DNA of 40,682 nucleotides from an uncultured Candidatus Saccharibacteria bacterium (GTDB taxonomy: Bacteria; Patescibacteriota; Saccharimonadia; Saccharimonadales; Saccharimonadaceae), in assembly GCA_947304335.1 (NCBI GenBank), contig CAMZAW010000003.1, forward strand, positions 1-40,682, given 5' to 3'. The first letter of the stretch is position 1. Each line of letters starts with the position of its first letter. Positions 974 to 12,767 of this stretch are shown here, piece after piece. The translations under genes and the position numbers were made by a program. Below the pieces are notes generated by a model. That model made no database searches, was not told the origin of the DNA, and saw nothing but the letters and a program-made list of their open reading frames with translations.

Positions 974-3046
974 TTAGGCGTTCAAAGCGCCACCGTCAGT
1001 CTTGTCGTTCTTGTCGTCGACCATGCTGTCAGCTGCGTTATTATCGACTACCATTTCGCCAGTTGCGTTAGCAGTCAAGCGCTTGAGTTCGCGTTTAGCG
1101 AGAATCAAGTAGATGCTGCCGCCAACGATGCCAACTACAATCACAGAAAGCATAGTGATTTCCATTGGGCCAGTCTCTGGCAATTTCTCTACTGGAGCAC
1201 AGCCATCAACCTTTTTGGCAATTACTTTAACGATACTTTCTTTAAAGGTTCCCTCTTTAGATTCGCCAATGTAACTAATCTCAGCCTTGTTAGAAAGCTC
1301 TGAGCCATCACAGTCGAAGTCATCGCCGACTTTCACATCGTAAACGATGTAAATGCTTTGGCCAGCCGTCAAGTTAGTCAAAGTATAGGCCAAAGTATCT
1401 TTGAGCTCGGTCCATTTTTCTTGGCCTTCGACATTCATTTTTACGCTGCCTTTTACCAAGGTCAAACCTTTTGGCAACTTATCGATAAAATCAACACTTT
1501 CGATATCAGAAGTGCCAGTGTTCTTAAGCGTTACTTTGTAGCGCAAGGTGGCACCTGGGGCAACTAAGGCTTTGCTATCATACTTTTTGCCTTCGTCAAC
1601 CGAGACTTCCTTCTTTAAGTTAACATTGTATTCTTTTGGTTTACATTCGTCGTCTTCGTCGGACTTCTTAATCGTTACCTTAGCGTCATCAGTCTTGGTA
1701 GTTCCCTCAATAGAAACGCTATCGTAAACTAAGTGTGCAATGTTGGTGAACACGCTACCAGTACAGTCAACATCAATATCCTCATCAATCTTTACATCGT
1801 AAATAATTTGGATAGTTGTGCCAGCTGGGATCGAATTGAGCTTGAACATTTGCTTGTCGGAAGTAGCTGACAAAGTATCCCATGTGCCAGAATTACCAAC
1901 AGTCATTTTATAACTGCCAGCAACTGCAGATAGACCTTCTGGCAAGCTATCATAAAAGATTGAGTTAGAAAGCTCTACTGCGCCAGTGTTTTTGATGGTT
2001 ACTCTGTAGCGTAAAGTATCGCCAGGATTGGCGGTTGCGGTTTCACCGTAGGTTTCACCACCATCCACCGAGACTTCCTTTGAAATCGTGCCAACCATCT
2101 CGGAAGATTGCAAAACGTAAGTAACGAAACCACGATATGGTTCACAACCGAAGACGATGCCAGAACCAAGACCAAAGGAATCACAATTGCCATTATTATC
2201 GCACCATTCCTCATCGCCAAAGCCAAGTAATTGGCCTTCCTCTTTATTGAAAATCCCTTTCTTTACCCCGTCTTCGCCAGTAGCATACACACCTTTAGTT
2301 ACTACAAATTGCTCCTGTTGTTTAAACGCGGCCGTATCGGATGGATGAATCTTCCCTTCGGCATCTTTATAGCCAACGTTGTAGTGTTTAGCAGAGCCCA
2401 CAACATATCTCAAGGCAATTTCTTTGTTTGTCTTGTTGTTGAAATAGGCTTTTGCCCAAATACTCTGTGGTTCAGTATTGTCTGGGTCCATGAAGGCGTT
2501 GTAAGATATTTTTGCTTCAACATCCCCTCTCGTCCCAGAAATTAACTCAGGATAAGATGAGAAAAGTTTCACGTTTCTTGCTAAACCTTCACCAGTAGCA
2601 TTGAGATCGGAAGAGGCGTTATTGTGATAGTAGATAAACACCATATATTGTTTATTTGGTTCAATATCTACAGACTGTTTAAATTCAATGACGCATTTAT
2701 CGTATTTAATTGTCACGGCTTTTTCATCAACGTCCAATAAATCAGTATTCTTCGTACCTTCCGCTTGCAAAGCAGCAAGATCAGCGGCAGAACAAACCCC
2801 GCTAGTCAAATCTGCGATTCTTATAAACTTGCGTTCGTCGCCATCTTCAGTATCAGAACTAAACGGAGCATCTTTTCCTGTAATCGAGTTAAATACTACA
2901 TGATCAGCCGGCGAAGCCATCGTGTAAGTCTGACGGTCTGGCCCCCAGGTTGGCTCATCCGCCAACACTGCAGACGTCAGGAACGTCGTCGACAACAACA
3001 AGCTACCAAACGCCGTCGTCATTATTTTTGCTTTTGTGTTCTTCAT
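974..3046 (-). CDS. Secreted surface protein with two DUF11-type repeats and LPETG-type C-terminal anchor
   Basis: Signal peptide; two repeats of the form VSVDGG..Y......PGDTLRY+V..KNTG...; C-terminal LPETGP plus TM plus basic tail. Start set at the ATG following GAAAGGA. Confidence 0.82.
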   Translation of the reverse strand: MKNTKAKIMTTAFGSLLLSTTFLTSAVLADEPTWGPDRQTYTMASPADHVVFNSITGKDAPFSSDTEDGDERKFIRIADLTSGVCSAADLAALQAEGTKNTDLLDVDEKAVTIKYDKCVIEFKQSVDIEPNKQYMVFIYYHNNASSDLNATGEGLARNVKLFSSYPELISGTRGDVEAKISYNAFMDPDNTEPQSIWAKAYFNNKTNKEIALRYVVGSAKHYNVGYKDAEGKIHPSDTAAFKQQEQFVVTKGVYATGEDGVKKGIFNKEEGQLLGFGDEEWCDNNGNCDSFGLGSGIVFGCEPYRGFVTYVLQSSEMVGTISKEVSVDGGETYGETATANPGDTLRYRVTIKNTGAVELSNSIFYDSLPEGLSAVAGSYKMTVGNSGTWDTLSATSDKQMFKLNSIPAGTTIQIIYDVKIDEDIDVDCTGSVFTNIAHLVYDSVSIEGTTKTDDAKVTIKKSDEDDECKPKEYNVNLKKEVSVDEGKKYDSKALVAPGATLRYKVTLKNTGTSDIESVDFIDKLPKGLTLVKGSVKMNVEGQEKWTELKDTLAYTLTNLTAGQSIYIVYDVKVGDDFDCDGSELSNKAEISYIGESKEGTFKESIVKVIAKKVDGCAPVEKLPETGPMEITMLSVIVVGIVGGSIYLILAKRELKRLTANATGEMVVDNNAADSMVDDKNDKTDGGALNA

Positions 3047-3077
3047 TTTTTCCTTTCTCACCCTTAATTATTAATTA

Positions 3078-6000
3078 TTATTCATTTCCAGAAAACTTAT
3101 CGGCTAACCAGTTGAGGAAGCCTCCTCTTCCCTCCTCGGTGTCATACTTTGTCGCATTCTCAGCAGCCTTTTGCATCTCAGCATTCGTAATTTCTTGTGC
3201 GTCATAATCATCATAGAACGGACCAGTATTTATCGGGGTCGGAGTCGGGCTCAATGTATAGTTGTTGACATCGCTTAGTTCCTCAGTCACATCAACTGGC
3301 GGAAGTGGAGTAACACTTGCATTAGGAGCCGGTGTACCACTATTAGCATTTTCAAGCGATTGTGCTAATTCATTAGTCACCCTTTCACCAGCTAAACCAT
3401 CGCCATCTGGCACGGTGTCTGCAGGATTTGCTTCAAATGTCGCACTGTCAAATCCGGCACTTTGACCAACCTCATCAAGGACCTTATTTTCCATTTCGTG
3501 CGCGAACTCAGCATCCTTAGGCGCCAAAGTTGGCGTTGGTTCTGGAGAGGGCGACGGAGATGGGCTTGGGCTCGGGCTTGGAGATGGAGTTGGAGTGTCG
3601 GTTGGAGTTGGGGTTGGAGTATCCGTTGGGGTTGGAGTAATCGTCGGGGTATTAGTTGGCGTTGGCTCTGGAGATGGTGACGGAGATGGAGTTGGAGTAT
3701 CAGTTGGGGTTGGGGTCGGGGTGTCCGTTGGGGTTGGAGTAATCGTCGGGGTATTAGTTGGCGTTGGCTCTGGAGATGGTGACGGAGATGGAGTTGGAGT
3801 GTCGGTTGGAGTTGGGGTTGGAGTATCAGTTGGAGTTGGGGTTGGAGTATCAGTTGGGGTTGGGGTCGGGGTGTCCGTTGGGGTTGGGGTCGGTGTATCA
3901 ATCACTACCGTACCCCATTGGTAACCACATTCAAGCATAAAGAATGGAATACCATCTTTAGTGAGGTTAGCACCAAGCCAGCCATGCGTACCCAAGTAAT
4001 ACTTTTCACCATCAATCGTGCGAGTTAGACTAAATACTGTGCGTAAACCATTACGCTCTCCAAGTTCAATGTCTCTACCATGGTTTATAGCGCCAACAGA
4101 CAAACGTCCATCAACCTTATAAATTTCGACACCACATCCTGGTATTGCTATTTCATCCTGTACACGACCAAGAACTGTATTGGTAAAGTTGCCCCAGAAC
4201 CTTGTTCCGCGCATATATTCCACAAAGTTATTCGACTCTGTCTGTGTATCGATTTTGCCAACGATGCCAGCCGCCTTGAAGGCTTCTTCCATTGCAGCCG
4301 CATCATTATTGAAGACCTGTGTAAGGAGTAAGTTATTGTCCTCAGCCACACCAAAGGCAACAGCTGTTTGGCCGAGCATTGTAGAGTTTTGAGATATATC
4401 ATAGATGTAATCCTGAAGAAGCTTCTTAACTTCATCTGGATCCACCTCGCCGTTGTGGTTCAAATCCCATTCGTAAGCTTCACCAAGGAATGAAGTCCTG
4501 GCTTTTTCTGGGCCAAAGGCTTTATCAGTAGTTGGATCATAAGTCTCGCTAGTGTAAACAACCCTATCGATGGTTTCACCATTCTCTAGTACAATTGGTT
4601 CCTGCGAGTGGTCTATCATCAAGTTTTCATATTGTGTTGCTTCAAATTGTTCAGAAGCTACTTCGGCTACACCAGCTTCGGCGCCAGCAGCAGCAGCGCC
4701 CTCTACTTCGCCGAGGGTTACGCCACTACCGCCAATCTTCTCTACTGAATCAGTAAACCTAAACGCCGCAATCTCGTGGCCCTGGTTATCAACAGCAGTA
4801 AGCTCATAGCCAATCTGCTCGACTCTATCTTGGAACGTCTCGCTAGTATCGAGTAAACGTCCCATCTGAGTTGCGGTTGACCTAAATGTACCATCAGCTT
4901 GCACATCACCACTTCTGACAACACCATACATATTAATCTTGCCATCTGGTGTTTTGTAGGTCATTTCCTCTGGAACTTCAAATGTACCATCGGCATTAAC
5001 CGGATAGCGAATCGCCTTGGCAGGGCCATCACCATCTGGATCCTGCCAGACAAATTCTGCACCCTTCGCTCTACCTTGCAAAACGTTACCAACTTCTTTA
5101 GGACGGTTAATAGTCACTTCGGTAGCGCTAGTCTTGGACAAGTTCCCATCATTAATATCAACATCAGTTGCGTTGTCATACGAATTGATTCTGTCAGCAA
5201 GGGTGACTTCTTTATCTACATAATATGTAATCTTTTGAACATCGACATTCACACCGTGTTCAGCCATTGTGCCTTTGAAGGCCTCGAATTGTTCTTGAGT
5301 CATGTTTTCAAAATCGATGCCTTTTGCGCTGCCTTCGCCGAAGATGATTTTATCGCCTTCGCCAATAGCACCATCGCCATCACTATCAACTGCAATCGTA
5401 TACCCACCATCTGGGTCTTTTTCAACCAGCATGTTTGTGCGTGCGGCCTGGCCATTAGAACCACCCTTCGGCACATCCTCGCCACCTTGGCCTTCACTAC
5501 CACCTTGTTGGTTAGCATTAGCCTTGTCATCAGTTTGGTTAATAGCAGCTTGATTACCCGTAGCGGCGGCAGCTTCTGCACCCTTAGCACCCGCAAAGTA
5601 ATTTACGATGTTCTTCTTAACGCCTTGGCGCCACTCTTCCAATTTTTGCATAGTGCCAGATTTTTGAAGCCTGTACATACCATATGTCATAACAGCAGCC
5701 ACACCAGCAGCCATCAAGGCGCTCTTGAACGCCTTGTTATGGGCTCGTTCTTTAATGGCTGCCTTTCTCTGGTCTACCCTGTCAAACATAAGATTACGCA
5801 TTTCTTGATACGTATCATCATATCTTTTGTTGAATTCTTCTTCGCCCAGTCTAATCTTTAGCAATGACGCAAGATTACCCTGATTTCTTGCGAGGGCATC
5901 TTTGGCCTGCGCAATATCTTTCCAGCTATCATATTTAAATAGGTTTACATTTTCAATGTTTTGCACCTCGCGTCTAGCGTTCAAATCGGCAATCGCCTGA

Positions 6001-8240
6001 ATTGCGCGATGAATTCTCTCTTCTTTAGCCTTAGCTAAATCATCAGCAGATAAATTAGCATCAGAGGCGTCACCGTGCATAATCAAATCAAAGAGTCTAC
6101 GCAAATCATTCGCTGCGGTTTTAGCATTCACCTTATAGTTGAGATCTTTGAGGCTTTTTATCGCTTCGTCCTTCTTACCTACGGATTCCATCACATCGCC
6201 ATGACTTGTGTCAATCATTTCTTTTCGTCTGGTCGTTACATAAGCAAAGATACCAGCAAAAGCCGTTACGCCAGCGCCGTGCCAGAACATAGATTTCCCG
6301 TTAGGGAGCACCTTGTTTCTTGCCATACGGATTGCTTCCGGAACAATACCAGCCAAGGTGCCAATTGCTACGCTCCACTTCTTTCCTTTACCAACCAGTT
6401 TTTCAGCAATTGAAAGTCTCTCAGTTGCATCAAGGCCAGTATTCATCTTGGACATATTGACTTTGAGCTTCATGAGCGTAAATGCTTCGAGCGCACCTCT
6501 TTGTTCATCGGTCGTTTCTTGCCTACCCACGAACTTGCCACCAAGATCTTCAATGAGCGTATCAGCTAATTCCTCGTAGTCACCAACCGCAAACGTGTTA
6601 GTCTCTTTATTATCATCATGATCTAATTCAAGCCCTTTAATTCTTTTAAGCAAAGCCTTCTTGGCTTCAGCCATTGCGTTCTTATCATTAGTTCTAGCAA
6701 CTTCAAACAAGAAGTCATTATAAGCTTCCCTAATTTCGCCCGCCATCTTCTTGGACTCTTTATCTTCTGCATTGGCTTTTTCACCAGCACCTTCATTAAT
6801 GGCTTCATCACCAGCCATACCATCATGATATGCCTTCGCGCGTGACAAGATATATTGCTCGCTACCTTGGCCAGCTTCATATTTTTGGCTAACTTTTCTC
6901 AAAGCATTTCTGCGAGCCCTGTCCGAATTAAGGGCCTTAAAGTAACCGGTAAGCTTGTTGCCCTTGGTGACCTTATCCTCCATACTCGAACGCATTTTTT
7001 CGAGAGCTTCTTCAGCAGCATCTAGGTTTCCAGTGTTATCGATTGCTTCTCTTGCAGCTTTCTTAAAGGCGTTAAATTGCACGCTTTTTCTTAATGCGTT
7101 CTTTGTGCCAATAGCAAAGATACTGCCGATCATCGCCTTACCAACGAGGTTAAAGCCACCGGTGATAAAGACGCCACCAACAGTAGCTGCTATAGCAGCA
7201 ACCTTAAGTGCTACCTTTAGCTTACTACTTTTACCCTTAAAGGCTTCATTAACATTCTTTTCATATGTCCTAAGCGTGTCTGACGCCATCGTATTCGCCA
7301 TGTTTTCAAGGCTCGCCTCATTGATTTCGGCTCTCGTTACAGAGTAATCATCATCAAGGTTAAGATCGAAGAGCTCGCCGATGTCTTTTTGCTTAGCTTC
7401 CTTCTTGCCTGGCTCCTCAGCAGCGCCCTCGTTCGTCCCAAAATATTCATTGAATTTGCGGTTAATAGCCTCGCGTGGGTCTTCGTCTTTTTCGTCAACC
7501 TTACCTTCAACTTTGCTTTCAGTTTTACTCTCAGTCTTGCCCTCGCTCTTGCTCTCGGTCTTACCCTCGGCATTCGACTCTGTTTCGTCTGAACCTGGTT
7601 TGTTTGCAGAGCTAAACCTACCCCTATTCATGACGTCAAAATATTCGTCGTACTTGCGCTCAATTTCGCTTCGCACGTCTTCCTTTTTCTCAACTGGTTT
7701 TTCTTCAGGCACGGATCTAAACCTAGCGACATTCATGATGTCCATGTATTCGTCATACTTCTTTTGAATCTCTTCCCGTACGTCTTTTTTCGTGTCGGAT
7801 TTCTCTTTTTTATCAGATTTATCTTCCGTTTTAGATTCGGCAGCAGCAGTCGACTCTGGTTTTTGAACCGGCGCAGATTCTGCAGCTGGGGTAGCTTCAG
7901 AAGTTTTATCCTCAGCTTCTGGGAAACGTTCCTTAAATTTTTTATTAATAGCCGCGCGCACGTCTACTTTTTTATCATCAAAATCTTTGGCACCTTCGGC
8001 CTCTTTGTAGTCGTTTTTCTCTTCTGAAACAACTTCGTCGTCTCCAAAAACATTTTCATCAAGTTGTTTCTTAAGATTTGCTTCAATCTCAGCAAACTCA
8101 GCATCCTCTGCTGCTTTCCTGCGGGCTTCAGCCTCAGCTTCAGCTTGGGCTATCTTCCTGTTTAGCTCAGCTCTCACGTCCGCTGGCGCTGGCGCCTGTT
8201 CGGCGGCTGGCTGAGGGCTTGTATTTAGTTTCTCAGACAT
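3078..8240 (-). CDS. 1720-aa membrane/surface protein with N-terminal repeats, central hydrophobic segments, EF-hand-like loops and PT/PS-rich low-complexity region
   Basis: Long intact ORF; hydrophobic segments such as [23 protein letters not shown] and [16 protein letters not shown]; loop [12 protein letters not shown]; (PTPTDTPT)n near the C-terminus. Confidence 0.8.
3540..3905 (-). repeat. Coding tandem repeat (PT/PS-rich), including a 77-bp block repeated exactly with 102-bp period
   Basis: tccgttggggttggagtaatcgtcggggtattagttggcgttggctctggagatggtgacggagatggagttggagt occurs at 3622..3698 and 3724..3800. Confidence 0.9.
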
Positions 8241-9362: not shown

Positions 9363-12290
9363 TTAAGCTTTCTGCAACGAAATCGTCACATTTTCACCAT
9401 TCACCTTGACGATCTCATCGTAGGCATAGTTCCCTTCGGTCACTACGCTATCGGCTAATACTTCAGCCATAAAGAGGTCGCTGAAGCCTTCTGGCACTTC
9501 GCATGACACGGATAATAATATATGGTCATTTACGGTAAGACCAGCCTTCTTACGAGCAGCTTGCACGGAGCGAATCAGCTCGCGCACAAAGCCCTCGGCT
9601 TCAAGCTCTGGCGTCAGGGTTTTGTTCAAATAATTTTTATCACCCTGAGTAACTTTTTTAACGTTGACTTCGTCAGCGATAATGCCTTCATAAAATTCTG
9701 GCAATTTCTCGCCGGCATAGGTCATCTCAGAGAGCGGCTGGCGCACCTTAATTTGCTCTTCCGTCTCTGTTTTGTTCATCCTCATGGCCAGACCTTCGGT
9801 AATAATCTCACGGCAACGTTTCATATCGTTTAGAACATCCAAATCGTCAATTTCTGTAGTCTTTGGATAATCCAAAAGGTGTACAGACTCTCCAGAACCA
9901 GTCATCTTCTGATATAGTTCCTCAGCCAGGAATGGCGTAAATGGCGCCATCATCATCGCGATACGCACAAGAACTGTATAAAGCGTCCAGAAGGCTTCTT
10001 TCTTGTCCTCCTCGTTCTCATTTTTGTTGAAACGACGACGAGAACGACGTACAAACCAGTTAGAAAGATCGTCTACAAACGGTAAAACGCCTTCAAGAGC
10101 CTTTGGAATATTATATTCATGCATTCCCTCAATAATTTCTGCCTTCACTTCATAAAGACGAGCGATAATCCAGCGGTCTAGTGGGTTCTTTAGATCAGAA
10201 ATAAGCTTACCGGCTGGTCTCCAACCGTTTTCCGAATCCCAACCTTCTGCTTCAGCATAAGTCGTAAAGAAGTCATAAACGTTCCAAATCATCGAAAGTT
10301 TACGATTCACATCGGAGACATCCTTATCGAGCAAAGCGAAGTCTTCGCCGGACAAAACTGGCGAGCTAAGTAGCAAGAAGCGCAGTGAATCTGCCGAATA
10401 TTTATCCATCAATTCGTTTGGATCGGTGTAATTGCCGAGCGACTTGCTCATCTTGCGGCCATCGTTACCGGCCAAAGTACCAGTCGTAATCACGTTTTTA
10501 TACGCGTTATGGCCAAATAGAGCCGTATTTACGCAGTGAACATAGTAAAACCATGCACGCACCTGGCCCACATACTCCACGATAAAGTCAGCTGGGTAGT
10601 TTTGTTCAAACTTTTCTTTGTTCTCGAACGGATAGTGTAGTTGCGCGAATGGCATCGAGCCAGATTCAAACCAACAGTCTAACACCTTTTCGATGCGTTT
10701 GAAATGCTCGCCATCGATATCGAACTCGATTTCATCCACCCATGGGCGGTGATAGTCTTCAAGGCGCTTACCAGAAAGTTCATAAAGCTCGTCATACGAA
10801 CCAACCACTTTCACGGTGCCTTTATCGCCCTTCCAAACTGGCATTGCCGTAGCCCAGAAGCGATCGCGAGAAAGGTTCCAGTCTGGTGCCGCCTCAATAT
10901 TCTTAGCAAAGCGGCCGTGTTTCAAGTATTCTGGGAACCAGTTGATATTCTCATTCTCCGCGAGCATCAAAGCCTTTGAGCCATCCACATCAAAGAACCA
11001 GCTAGGAAATGCACGGTAAATAATACGTTCCTTGCTGCGCGGGTTGAATGGATATTCGTGCTGGATATATTCAATCTTGTAGACAATTCCCTTTTCTTCT
11101 AGGCACTTAGCGATAAACTTGTTACCTGCCCACACCTGAATACCACTTTCATCGGTATCGCGCACACCAAGTTCGTGCAATTTCTCGGCCATTTCTGGCA
11201 AGTAGTAGCCATTTTCATCTAGGCAGTCCACAAAATCCACGTCAAACTTTTGAGAGAGTGCATAATCGTCTTCACCATAAGCCGGAGCGATATGCACAAT
11301 GCCAGTACCATCTTCAGCAGACACGAAGTCGCCTGGAAGCACCGTGTAAGTATCTTTGCGGCGCACCGTACCAGCCTTGCCATCGGCGCCAAGATCAAAG
11401 AGACCATCAGCCACTTCAATAATTGGTTCGTACTTTTTGCCAACTAGAGCTTCGCCTTTCACTGCTTTCACAGGCTTAAGGCCTTCAAATAGCACCTTAG
11501 CGCGCTCCAAAGCCAAAATCAGCGTGTTACCATCTACTTCAAAGTAACCATACTCAAGTTTTGGATTAATAGCGAGCGCCATATTGGCTGGCAAAGTCCA
11601 TGGCGTAGTCGTCCAAGCGAGGAAATAAGCATCCTCACCCACAACCTTAAACTTCACGTAAGCCGATGGGTCCGTTACCACCTGGTAAGCATCGTTATCC
11701 ATCGTTACTTCGGCTTTCGAAACTGGTGTTGCGAACTTCGTATCGTACATCAACACCTTGCGGCCTTCGTAAATCTTGCCCTTTTCATAAAGCGTCTTAA
11801 ACGCCCACCACACGGACTCCATAAAGTCCTTGTTCATCGTGCGATAGCAGTTATCAAAATCTACCCAGCGGCCGATACGATCAATCGTACCACGCCAAGT
11901 CTCAGAATTTGCCACCATCGACTCACGAGCCTTAATAATATATTCTTCAAGAGACCATTTGGTACCAATTTCGCGGCGATCCGTAATACCAAGCTGTTTT
12001 TCCACGAAATTTTCTGCCGGGAGACCATGGCAGTCCCAACCCCAACGGCGTTCCACACGGTAGCCGTTCATCGTCCAAAAGCGTGGCACTGCATCCTTCA
12101 CGATTGAAGAAAGCAACGTACCATGATGTGGGTTACCTGTAATAAACGGAGGCCCATCATAAAACACATACGATTGATGCGCCGGGCGGTTTTCGACCGA
12201 CTTTTCAAAGGTTTTGTCTTGTTTCCACCACTCCACGAGTGCCTTTTCGTACTCGATGGCGCGGCGACGATTCCCTGCTTGGTATTTCAT
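9363..12290 (-). CDS. ileS: Isoleucyl-tRNA synthetase
   Basis: 975 aa; class I motifs FYDGPPFITGNPHHGTLLSS, WGWDCHGLPAE, KMSKSLGNYTDP. Confidence 0.95.
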   Translation of the reverse strand: MKYQAGNRRRAIEYEKALVEWWKQDKTFEKSVENRPAHQSYVFYDGPPFITGNPHHGTLLSSIVKDAVPRFWTMNGYRVERRWGWDCHGLPAENFVEKQLGITDRREIGTKWSLEEYIIKARESMVANSETWRGTIDRIGRWVDFDNCYRTMNKDFMESVWWAFKTLYEKGKIYEGRKVLMYDTKFATPVSKAEVTMDNDAYQVVTDPSAYVKFKVVGEDAYFLAWTTTPWTLPANMALAINPKLEYGYFEVDGNTLILALERAKVLFEGLKPVKAVKGEALVGKKYEPIIEVADGLFDLGADGKAGTVRRKDTYTVLPGDFVSAEDGTGIVHIAPAYGEDDYALSQKFDVDFVDCLDENGYYLPEMAEKLHELGVRDTDESGIQVWAGNKFIAKCLEEKGIVYKIEYIQHEYPFNPRSKERIIYRAFPSWFFDVDGSKALMLAENENINWFPEYLKHGRFAKNIEAAPDWNLSRDRFWATAMPVWKGDKGTVKVVGSYDELYELSGKRLEDYHRPWVDEIEFDIDGEHFKRIEKVLDCWFESGSMPFAQLHYPFENKEKFEQNYPADFIVEYVGQVRAWFYYVHCVNTALFGHNAYKNVITTGTLAGNDGRKMSKSLGNYTDPNELMDKYSADSLRFLLLSSPVLSGEDFALLDKDVSDVNRKLSMIWNVYDFFTTYAEAEGWDSENGWRPAGKLISDLKNPLDRWIIARLYEVKAEIIEGMHEYNIPKALEGVLPFVDDLSNWFVRRSRRRFNKNENEEDKKEAFWTLYTVLVRIAMMMAPFTPFLAEELYQKMTGSGESVHLLDYPKTTEIDDLDVLNDMKRCREIITEGLAMRMNKTETEEQIKVRQPLSEMTYAGEKLPEFYEGIIADEVNVKKVTQGDKNYLNKTLTPELEAEGFVRELIRSVQAARKKAGLTVNDHILLSVSCEVPEGFSDLFMAEVLADSVVTEGNYAYDEIVKVNGENVTISLQKA

Positions 12291-12307
12291 TTTGTCTCCT
12301 TTAAATT

Positions 12308-12465
12308 AAAAAATCCAATGCTTTTCGCATTGGAACTCATGTGAGCGGTACCATCCAATTTCTAGCCGAGGCTAGCCCTTAATTCGTCTTTTACGCAGAT
12401 TCACGAGCGATTCTACTTGGTTTCCCGTTCTTTCGCCAGCTCGCAGTTGATAGCTGCTCTAACGC
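12308..12465 (-). promoter_or_regulatory. T-box riboswitch (tRNA-Ile responsive leader) of ileS with terminator
   Basis: Minus strand: GCAG-CTATCAA-CTGC hairpin with ATC in loop (12449..12451); AGTAGAA; CTAGCC-TC-GGCTAG stem; TTGGATGGTACCGCTC T-box; terminator TCCAATGC-GAAAA-GCATTGGA-TTTTTT; alternative ATTGGA/TCCAAT antiterminator pairing. Confidence 0.88.
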
Positions 12466-12512
12466 TTTTCTACATCATATCATATTTGCATCGTAAAGAA
12501 AACTGCACACGC

Positions 12513-12767
12513 TTAAATCGCGTAATACAGCACTTCATCAATCAGCGGCAAAGTCTTTCCCCGCCAACTACTTACCACCGAGCCATTATTGTCGAGCGCC
12601 AAAATCGTCGGGTACTCTACCACGTCATAAGTTTCGCAAAAAATCTCATCCTTATCTGGGTCAACCACCTCAATTTCGCGGCCAGTTTGGCGACGAAAAT
12701 TCTCTAGCCACTCAAAAACCATGCGTGAATAATCCTGGTTGTCCCGATAAACACATACCACCCTCAT
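12513..12767 (-). CDS. Thioredoxin/glutaredoxin-fold-like small protein without CXXC
   Basis: 84 aa; VVCVYRDNQDYSR...YDVVEYPTILALDNNGSVVSSWRG resembles a thioredoxin fold with cis-Pro (YPT) but has one Cys at the active-site position. Confidence 0.5.
   Translation of the reverse strand: MRVVCVYRDNQDYSRMVFEWLENFRRQTGREIEVVDPDKDEIFCETYDVVEYPTILALDNNGSVVSSWRGKTLPLIDEVLYYAI

Follow-up and report, generated by a model that had tools for sequence, protein, structure and literature searches.

Identity of the ileS leader

In the window, a 40,682-nucleotide stretch of DNA from an uncultured, ultra-small Candidatus Saccharibacteria bacterium, the isoleucyl-tRNA synthetase gene ileS is preceded by a structured leader. 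The locus raises the question of whether this leader is a T-box that senses tRNA-Ile, and whether a T-box with a very short Stem I acts here on transcription. The sequence-only reading had proposed a short-Stem-I T-box with an AUC specifier and a terminator before ileS. The sequence itself, the relatives and a match to the Rfam T-box model RF00230 all support this proposal. We put the probability that the ileS leader is a tRNA-Ile-sensing T-box exerting control by transcription attenuation at roughly 0.9.

The T-box leader occupies 12469–12308 on the minus strand, with ileS downstream. The element is one continuous leader, flanked by an 84-aa ORF ending at 12513 and by the ileS ATG at 12290. 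Searched in E-value mode against a 361-nt stretch, RF00230 gives 50.1 bits (E 3.1e-10), below its gathering score of 93, which is a threshold of the database rather than a biological property of T-boxes, and the alignment covers the full-length model (positions 1–219, window 12471–12328). Against the whole 608-kb assembly the E-value is 1.2e-10 and the match is the sole T-box match in the genome. The covariance hit that the earlier reading had called for was thus obtained at both scales. A scan of the window at Rfam gathering thresholds returned tRNAs only and no T-box. A freshwater-2 Rfam match (E 1.5) was dismissed, as it is weak and spans only the stretch from the terminator to the start codon.

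Further along the same strand, a 1720-aa ORF (3078–8240) without an NCBIfam match adjoins a 695-aa protein with a DUF11 repeat (974–3061). The two are probably large surface proteins.

Anatomy of the leader

The minimum-energy fold of the single sequence mispairs Stem II and the 5' end, with a z-score of −1.8. Because of this mispairing and the weak z-score, the structure was taken from covariation. All features lie on the minus strand:

12474–12482, minus strand: extended −10 box TG-A-TATGAT, TGATATGAT; transcript start predicted near 12467
12438–12466, minus strand: ultrashort Stem I, with lower helix AGC/GCU, K-turn-like loop GUUA with GA/GA, and upper helix GCAG/CUGC
12449–12451, minus strand: specifier AUC (Ile) in the apical loop C-UAUCA-A, followed by A; invariant in 26 of 26 leaders
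12406–12437, minus strand: Stem II, with base GGCGA/UCGCU, S-turn strands AAGAA and AGUAGAA, and cap GG-GAAA-CC
12386–12405, minus strand: Stem IIA/B pseudoknot, with helix CGU/GCG and loop UCU pairing with AGA
12360–12380, minus strand: Stem III CUAGC(C)/(G)GCUAG with purines AAGGG ... AA (RRRxG-Stem III-AA)
12329–12359, minus strand: antiterminator, with helix A1 AUUGGA/UCCAAU and helix A2 GCUC/GAGU ending in a terminal G-U
12353–12347, minus strand: 7-nt T-box bulge UGGUACC between A1 and A2
12308–12334, minus strand: intrinsic terminator UCCAAUGC-GAAAA-GCAUUGGA followed by U6; its 5' arm is the A1 3' strand
12296–12302, minus strand: Shine-Dalgarno sequence AAAGGAG, outside the terminator and unpaired in the minimum-energy fold
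9363–12290, minus strand: ileS, isoleucyl-tRNA synthetase, 975 aa (TIGR00392, 772 bits against a cut-off of 621)

The motifs listed in the sequence-only reading are all present on the minus strand, and every helix covaries in relatives. GCAG-CUAUCAA-CUGC lies at 12457–12443, AGUAGAA at 12417–12411 and CUAGCC/GGCUAG at 12375–12362. The T-box core UUGGAUGGUACCGCUC, the AUUGGA/UCCAAU helix, and the terminator with its U6 tract (12334–12308) can likewise be read directly. The interval given, 12308–12465, was right within a few bases; the element begins near 12466–12469 rather than at 12465. That anatomy was incomplete, lacking the lower Stem I helix with its K-turn, Stem II proper, the IIA/B pseudoknot and the extended −10 box. 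The K-turn, the S-turn, RRRxG-Stem III-AA and the terminal G-U sensor are functional T-box parts (PMC7583486).

A hexamer resembling a −10 box lies upstream of Stem I in 38 of 41 related leaders, in many of them as TGnTATAAT. A sigma-70 consensus scan of the leader promoter found no −35/−10 pair, and a −35 box is not recognisable.

Conservation and covariation

Within the same family, RF00230 has matches in 48 of 151 genomes, and none of the 151 reaches the gathering score of 93, so annotation at the Rfam cut-off misses the T-box. The high cut-off thereby hides a whole regulatory family. Since RF00230 found only a third of the family genomes, a covariance model, R1, was built. Fifty loci were oriented and read. 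They reveal two main leader types in the family, an ileS type with the loop UAUCA and a thrS type with UGGAACC and ACC in the loop.

Twenty-six ileS-type leaders were aligned with MAFFT (alignment A1), and pairs were counted on the structure drawn from L001. Standard pairs make up 92.7% in this alignment, against 33–43% when the 3' partners are slid, and no shuffle scored as high. Changes on both sides occur in 27 of the 36 pairs. Covariation supports the lower and upper helices of Stem I, the base of Stem II, the IIA/B pseudoknot, Stem III, A1 and A2.

The three pairs of the lower Stem I helix vary among relatives as AU/GC/GU/UA, GC/AU/UG/CG and CG/UA, and the upper helix is 100% paired; the K-turn between them was assigned by motif, not by structure. 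All five pairs of the Stem II base covary, and UAGA (alignment positions 55–58) is invariant in the 26-leader alignment. In the pseudoknot, IIA is paired in about 92% and IIB in 74%, with double changes on three of the four IIB pairs. Stem III is 98.5% paired and all its five pairs are double-changed; the flanking A91, G92, G94, A109 and A110 are invariant. Helices A1 and A2 are 100% paired in the 26 relatives, 25 of which end A2 with a G-U pair, and the UGGUA of the bulge is invariant or nearly so. The AUC specifier is conserved in all 26 aligned leaders, as had been expected, and occurs in all ileS-type loci after two manual corrections.

Predicted coupling to transcription termination

A terminator scan finds the window hairpin, compared with a mean of 0.2 in shuffles. 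The terminator shares UCCAAU with A1, the classical competition between A1 and terminator. The terminator form of the window leader has a predicted energy of −20.8 kcal/mol and the antiterminator form −13.3 kcal/mol. The terminator form is thus more stable by 7.5 kcal/mol, which makes OFF the default state. A default OFF state is expected of a T-box. Same-genus loci, which were read by eye because terminator-finder labels for them (e.g., L014 and L017) are unreliable, keep the competition between A1 and terminator, and the eighth terminator pair varies among them as C-G, G-C and U-A.

Across the relatives, 103 of 108 T-box copies are followed by a stable stem and, immediately after it, a U-tract. 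U-tract terminators appear in 77 of 540 shuffles (14%) and in 16 of 86 upstream control windows. A class III aptamer is therefore coupled to predicted transcription termination throughout the family.

The U-tract hairpin could instead be incidental or a secondary device of a T-box acting on translation, as in actinobacterial ileS leaders. Such an arrangement has precedent, as the described class III T-boxes mostly act on translation (PMC10482949) and the ileS T-boxes of Actinobacteria carry Shine-Dalgarno-sequestering hairpins, not terminators (PMC1262725). In the window, however, 5 nt separate the U-tract from the Shine-Dalgarno sequence downstream, and the best fold leaves that sequence unpaired. 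The frequency of U-tract terminators and the covariation of the eighth terminator pair within the genus also argue against it. Relatives keep a terminator of different sequence, and a conserved anti-Shine-Dalgarno element was not noticed. We consider translational control improbable, and retain transcription attenuation as the reading of the ileS leader.

The A1/terminator competition of the window is not the only platform. In the largest group, of about 60 relatives (a count from a rough classifier, the platform classes having been set by script and by eye), the 3' arm of the terminator is complementary to Stem III (its loop and 3' strand), not to A1. In L016, for example, GAAUCACUUCUUUUGG pairs with AAAGAAGUGAUU. 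The terminator 3' arm pairs with its own Stem III at a mean of −12.5 kcal/mol and with the Stem III of other loci at −7.5 kcal/mol; none of 2000 random re-pairings was as good as the own-locus pairing. Within the class the values are −13.6 for own and −7.9 for other loci; outside the class the effect is weaker, −9.6 versus −7.9. Other examples of terminators of this type are found in L004, L007, L144, L149, L156 and L160, where, as in L016, the antiterminator is enclosed intact.

Judged by these pairings, A1 can stay formed inside the terminator of the Stem III platform. In the known mode, the 3' strands of A1 and A2 become the 5' strand of the terminator (PMC10907184), so the Stem III platform would be a different switch. 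A Stem III-derived terminator arm is thus possibly a new switch mode. It fits with the requirement of Stem III for tRNA binding (PMC7583486).

In a third group, with the bulge UGGUAAC, most terminators draw on the A2 strand CCCGCCC. This bulge, in place of UGGUACC, was read in L010, L019, L021, L025, L027, L031, L037 and L041. The ACC trinucleotide of the bulge stabilises the discriminator (PMC7583486). Several thrS T-boxes have a separate downstream terminator, AUGCGAU...AUCGCAU with a U-tract, in no obvious competition with A1.

Agreement of specifier, T-box bulge and tRNA

The downstream genes of 60 further loci were identified, and the specifier table covers 78 loci. The specifier was scored mechanically, as a codon that precedes a purine and lies within a hairpin loop in the 5' part. 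It agrees with the downstream synthetase in 52 of 57 loci for Ile, 8 of 9 for Val, 7 of 7 for Thr, 3 of 3 for Asp, and in the single loci for Tyr (1/1) and Lys (1/1). Off-diagonal combinations are far fewer.

The last base of UGGN changes along with the codon. The combinations are AUC with U for Ile, GUC with U for Val, ACC with A for Thr, GAC with C for Asp and UAC with U for Tyr. UGGU is found in 54 of 57 Ile loci, UGGA in 7 of 7 Thr loci and UGGC in 3 of 3 Asp loci. The tRNA genes of the own genome and of relatives end in A73-CCA for Ile, Val, Tyr and Lys, in U73-CCA for Thr and in G73-CCA for Asp. The UGGN bases are exact complements of the discriminators A73 (Ile), U73 (Thr) and G73 (Asp). 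Exceptions are L140 (valS, with an AUC loop and UGGC), L121, whose loop is unclear, and three leaders of ileS that carry UGGC or UGGA. The agreement of codon, discriminator and synthetase constitutes the strongest evidence that these putative sensors read tRNA.

In the window, AUC pairs with the anticodon GAU of tRNA-Ile from same-genus genomes, and UGGU complements A73 of the same tRNA-Ile(GAU). This tRNA is present in genus mates; the assembly that contains the window, 74% complete, yielded none, most likely owing to incompleteness.

The thrS T-boxes read within the family (L013, L026, L032, L033, L038, L042 and L044) carry UGGA and ACC, or ACU in L013; thrS was confirmed downstream for L013 and L038.

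Isoleucine supply and loss of the leader

Among 21 genomes searched, the own genome and 20 relatives, ilvD gave no match and ilvC none above cut-off. Both genes were found in 14 of 14 control genomes. Isoleucine must therefore come from outside, in line with the earlier guess of isoleucine auxotrophy.

In 20 same-genus genomes (97–99% complete), R1 found no T-box, even with fuller scoring. Fuller scoring and reading of the ileS upstream regions ruled out a filter artefact. In nine of ten such regions read (L195–L204), a −10 box lies about 6–35 nt from the ATG, mostly 6–12 nt, and no Shine-Dalgarno leader is present. The tenth, L198, has a Shine-Dalgarno sequence and lies close behind another gene. 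Most T-box-less genus mates thus probably have a leaderless ileS mRNA. L202 has the same upstream gene as the window and no T-box.

On the IleS tree, presence and absence of the T-box are interleaved. The tree requires five or more changes, many of its forks being weak, and the idea of one clean loss within the genus was rejected. The leader has thus been lost, or exchanged along with ileS, repeatedly. It is dispensable, as many same-genus genomes are without it.

This repeated loss, a sign that the leader is not essential, would also suit a degenerate constitutive leader, with the aptamer kept by descent and the terminator acting as a fixed attenuator that does not respond to tRNA. Yet a different downstream gene brings a matching specifier and UGGN base, and double changes preserve the pairing of every helix; a leader that does not sense tRNA would keep neither. 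We regard a constitutive leader as quite unlikely, even more so than translational control, and favour a sensing leader. Chance resemblance or another RNA class, suggested by an RF00230 score below the gathering score, has a negligible probability and is refuted by the E-value of 1e-10 in the whole genome, the phylum-wide homologues, the covariation and the specifier tests.

Proposed mechanism

That the leader binds tRNA and senses its charge, and in which direction it switches, we infer from how T-boxes are known to work; the anatomy, conservation, covariation, specifier and discriminator matching, the stabler terminator form and the absence of isoleucine pathway genes are computed here. RNA polymerase would start near 12467 and first make the class III-type aptamer. 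The ultrashort Stem I with its K-turn would present AUC, backed by Stem II with its S-turn and by the IIA/B pseudoknot, and the anticodon of tRNA-Ile(GAU) would bind AUC. The ACCA end of an uncharged tRNA would pair with UGGU and stabilise Stem III and the antiterminator. The UCCAAU strand would then not be free, and polymerase would read into ileS. With charged tRNA, the antiterminator would stay unstabilised, UCCAAUGC would pair with GCAUUGGA, and transcription would stop at the U-tract. An isoleucine-auxotrophic cell could in this way raise IleRS when isoleucine runs short. The arrangement suggests how amino-acid-auxotrophic episymbionts sense amino acids obtained externally.

A counterpoint is the argument that tRNA binding by an aptamer without the IDTM may be too slow for the decision to be made co-transcriptionally (PMC7583486). 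A large natural family combining a short Stem I with terminators makes this kinetic argument directly testable.

Comparison with known T-box classes

The leader resembles class III T-boxes, such as those of ileS in Nocardia farcinica, Mycobacterium tuberculosis and M. smegmatis. It shares with them a short Stem I with a K-turn, no IDTM, a small apical loop that holds the specifier and a following A, the Stem II S-turn, the IIA/B pseudoknot and the ileS target (PMC10482949, PMC7583486). The specifier loop has 7 nt, or 5 nt when the C-A closing mismatch is counted, and class III has been described with 5–6 nt (PMC10482949). The class III examples carry a Shine-Dalgarno sequestrator, whereas the leader here, in a saccharibacterial host, carries an intrinsic terminator. 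The translation-initiation control usual for class III was not found, as the leader has a U-tract terminator with the Shine-Dalgarno sequence outside it. Unlike the class III ileS examples, its relatives also serve valS, thrS, aspS, tyrS and lysS.

With class I T-boxes (B. subtilis tyrS, Firmicutes) the leader shares the UGGN-bulge antiterminator, the use of the A1 3' strand as the 5' arm of a U-tract terminator, the Stem II domain and the Stem III purines. In contrast to class I, its Stem I has only 29 nt and no distal IDTM or elbow-binding arm, and the specifier lies in a hairpin, not in an internal loop. Transcription attenuation and the UGGN antiterminator are also shared with class II (glyQS). 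However, glyQS has a long Stem I with IDTM and no Stem II, the reverse of the arrangement here.

The leader is thus a class III (IDTM-less) T-box aptamer joined to a predicted transcription attenuator. Class III and IV T-boxes mostly regulate translation (PMC10482949), and transcriptional T-boxes generally require a long, IDTM-bearing Stem I (PMC7583486). Reviews reason that tRNA has to be captured by the time polymerase clears the terminator, and they associate a short Stem I with translation (PMC7583486, PMC10482949, PMC7778990). A class III aptamer with transcription attenuation is a pairing that these reviews treat as atypical. The contrast drawn in the sequence-only reading between translational control in Actinobacteria and a long Stem I in Firmicutes agrees with the literature (PMC10482949, PMC7583486, PMC1262725).

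Distribution in the class and phylum

Within the class, R1 has matches in 201 of 298 genomes, which represent 98 of 128 genera. Among 294 genomes drawn from the phylum, 95 have matches; 72 of these are outside the class, 48 of them with E < 1e-8. A DNA pattern combining Stem I and Stem II retrieved 22 records, almost all of them from Candidatus Saccharibacteria. The same-genus and same-pattern loci bear out the guess of a Saccharibacterium-like host.

Similar short-stem transcriptional switches are widespread in the phylum and apparently undescribed. T-boxes in this phylum are not mentioned in the literature searched, most subscription papers (e.g., Sherwood 2015) being beyond its reach, and the present family extends T-boxes to it. 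TBDB runs its class II model on class I matches with truncated Stem I, and single transcriptional short-stem cases may therefore already sit there. On balance, we lean towards the view that a lineage of IDTM-less (class III) T-boxes extends throughout the phylum Patescibacteria, with transcriptional control of ileS, valS, thrS, aspS, tyrS and lysS. Many of these would use a new switch, in which the terminator 5' arm is the Stem III loop and 3' strand, the terminator encloses the intact antiterminator helix, and tRNA protects Stem III, not A1.

T-boxes of the same build precede valS, lysS, tyrS or aspS elsewhere in the phylum (L102–L106, L111, L113, L123, L124, L128, L129, L132 and L153); within this group, L103 is an ileS locus and L153 is the second T-box of a same-class genome. 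Some valS T-boxes elsewhere in the phylum have a larger specifier loop of 10–13 nt. In L003, the T-box of a valS-like gene differs from its neighbours: its Stem I is somewhat longer, and GUC occupies the 3' strand of an internal loop. This T-box was possibly acquired separately.

Unrelated small genes separate the T-box from ileS, or are the first genes after it, in L005, L018, L020, L025, L029, L034, L039, L043, L046 and L147. By the look of their sequences, only some of which were checked, they include GNAT, CYTH-like, NUDIX, HAD and DNA-3-methyladenine glycosylase genes. Given this position, these non-synthetase genes may be under isoleucine control.
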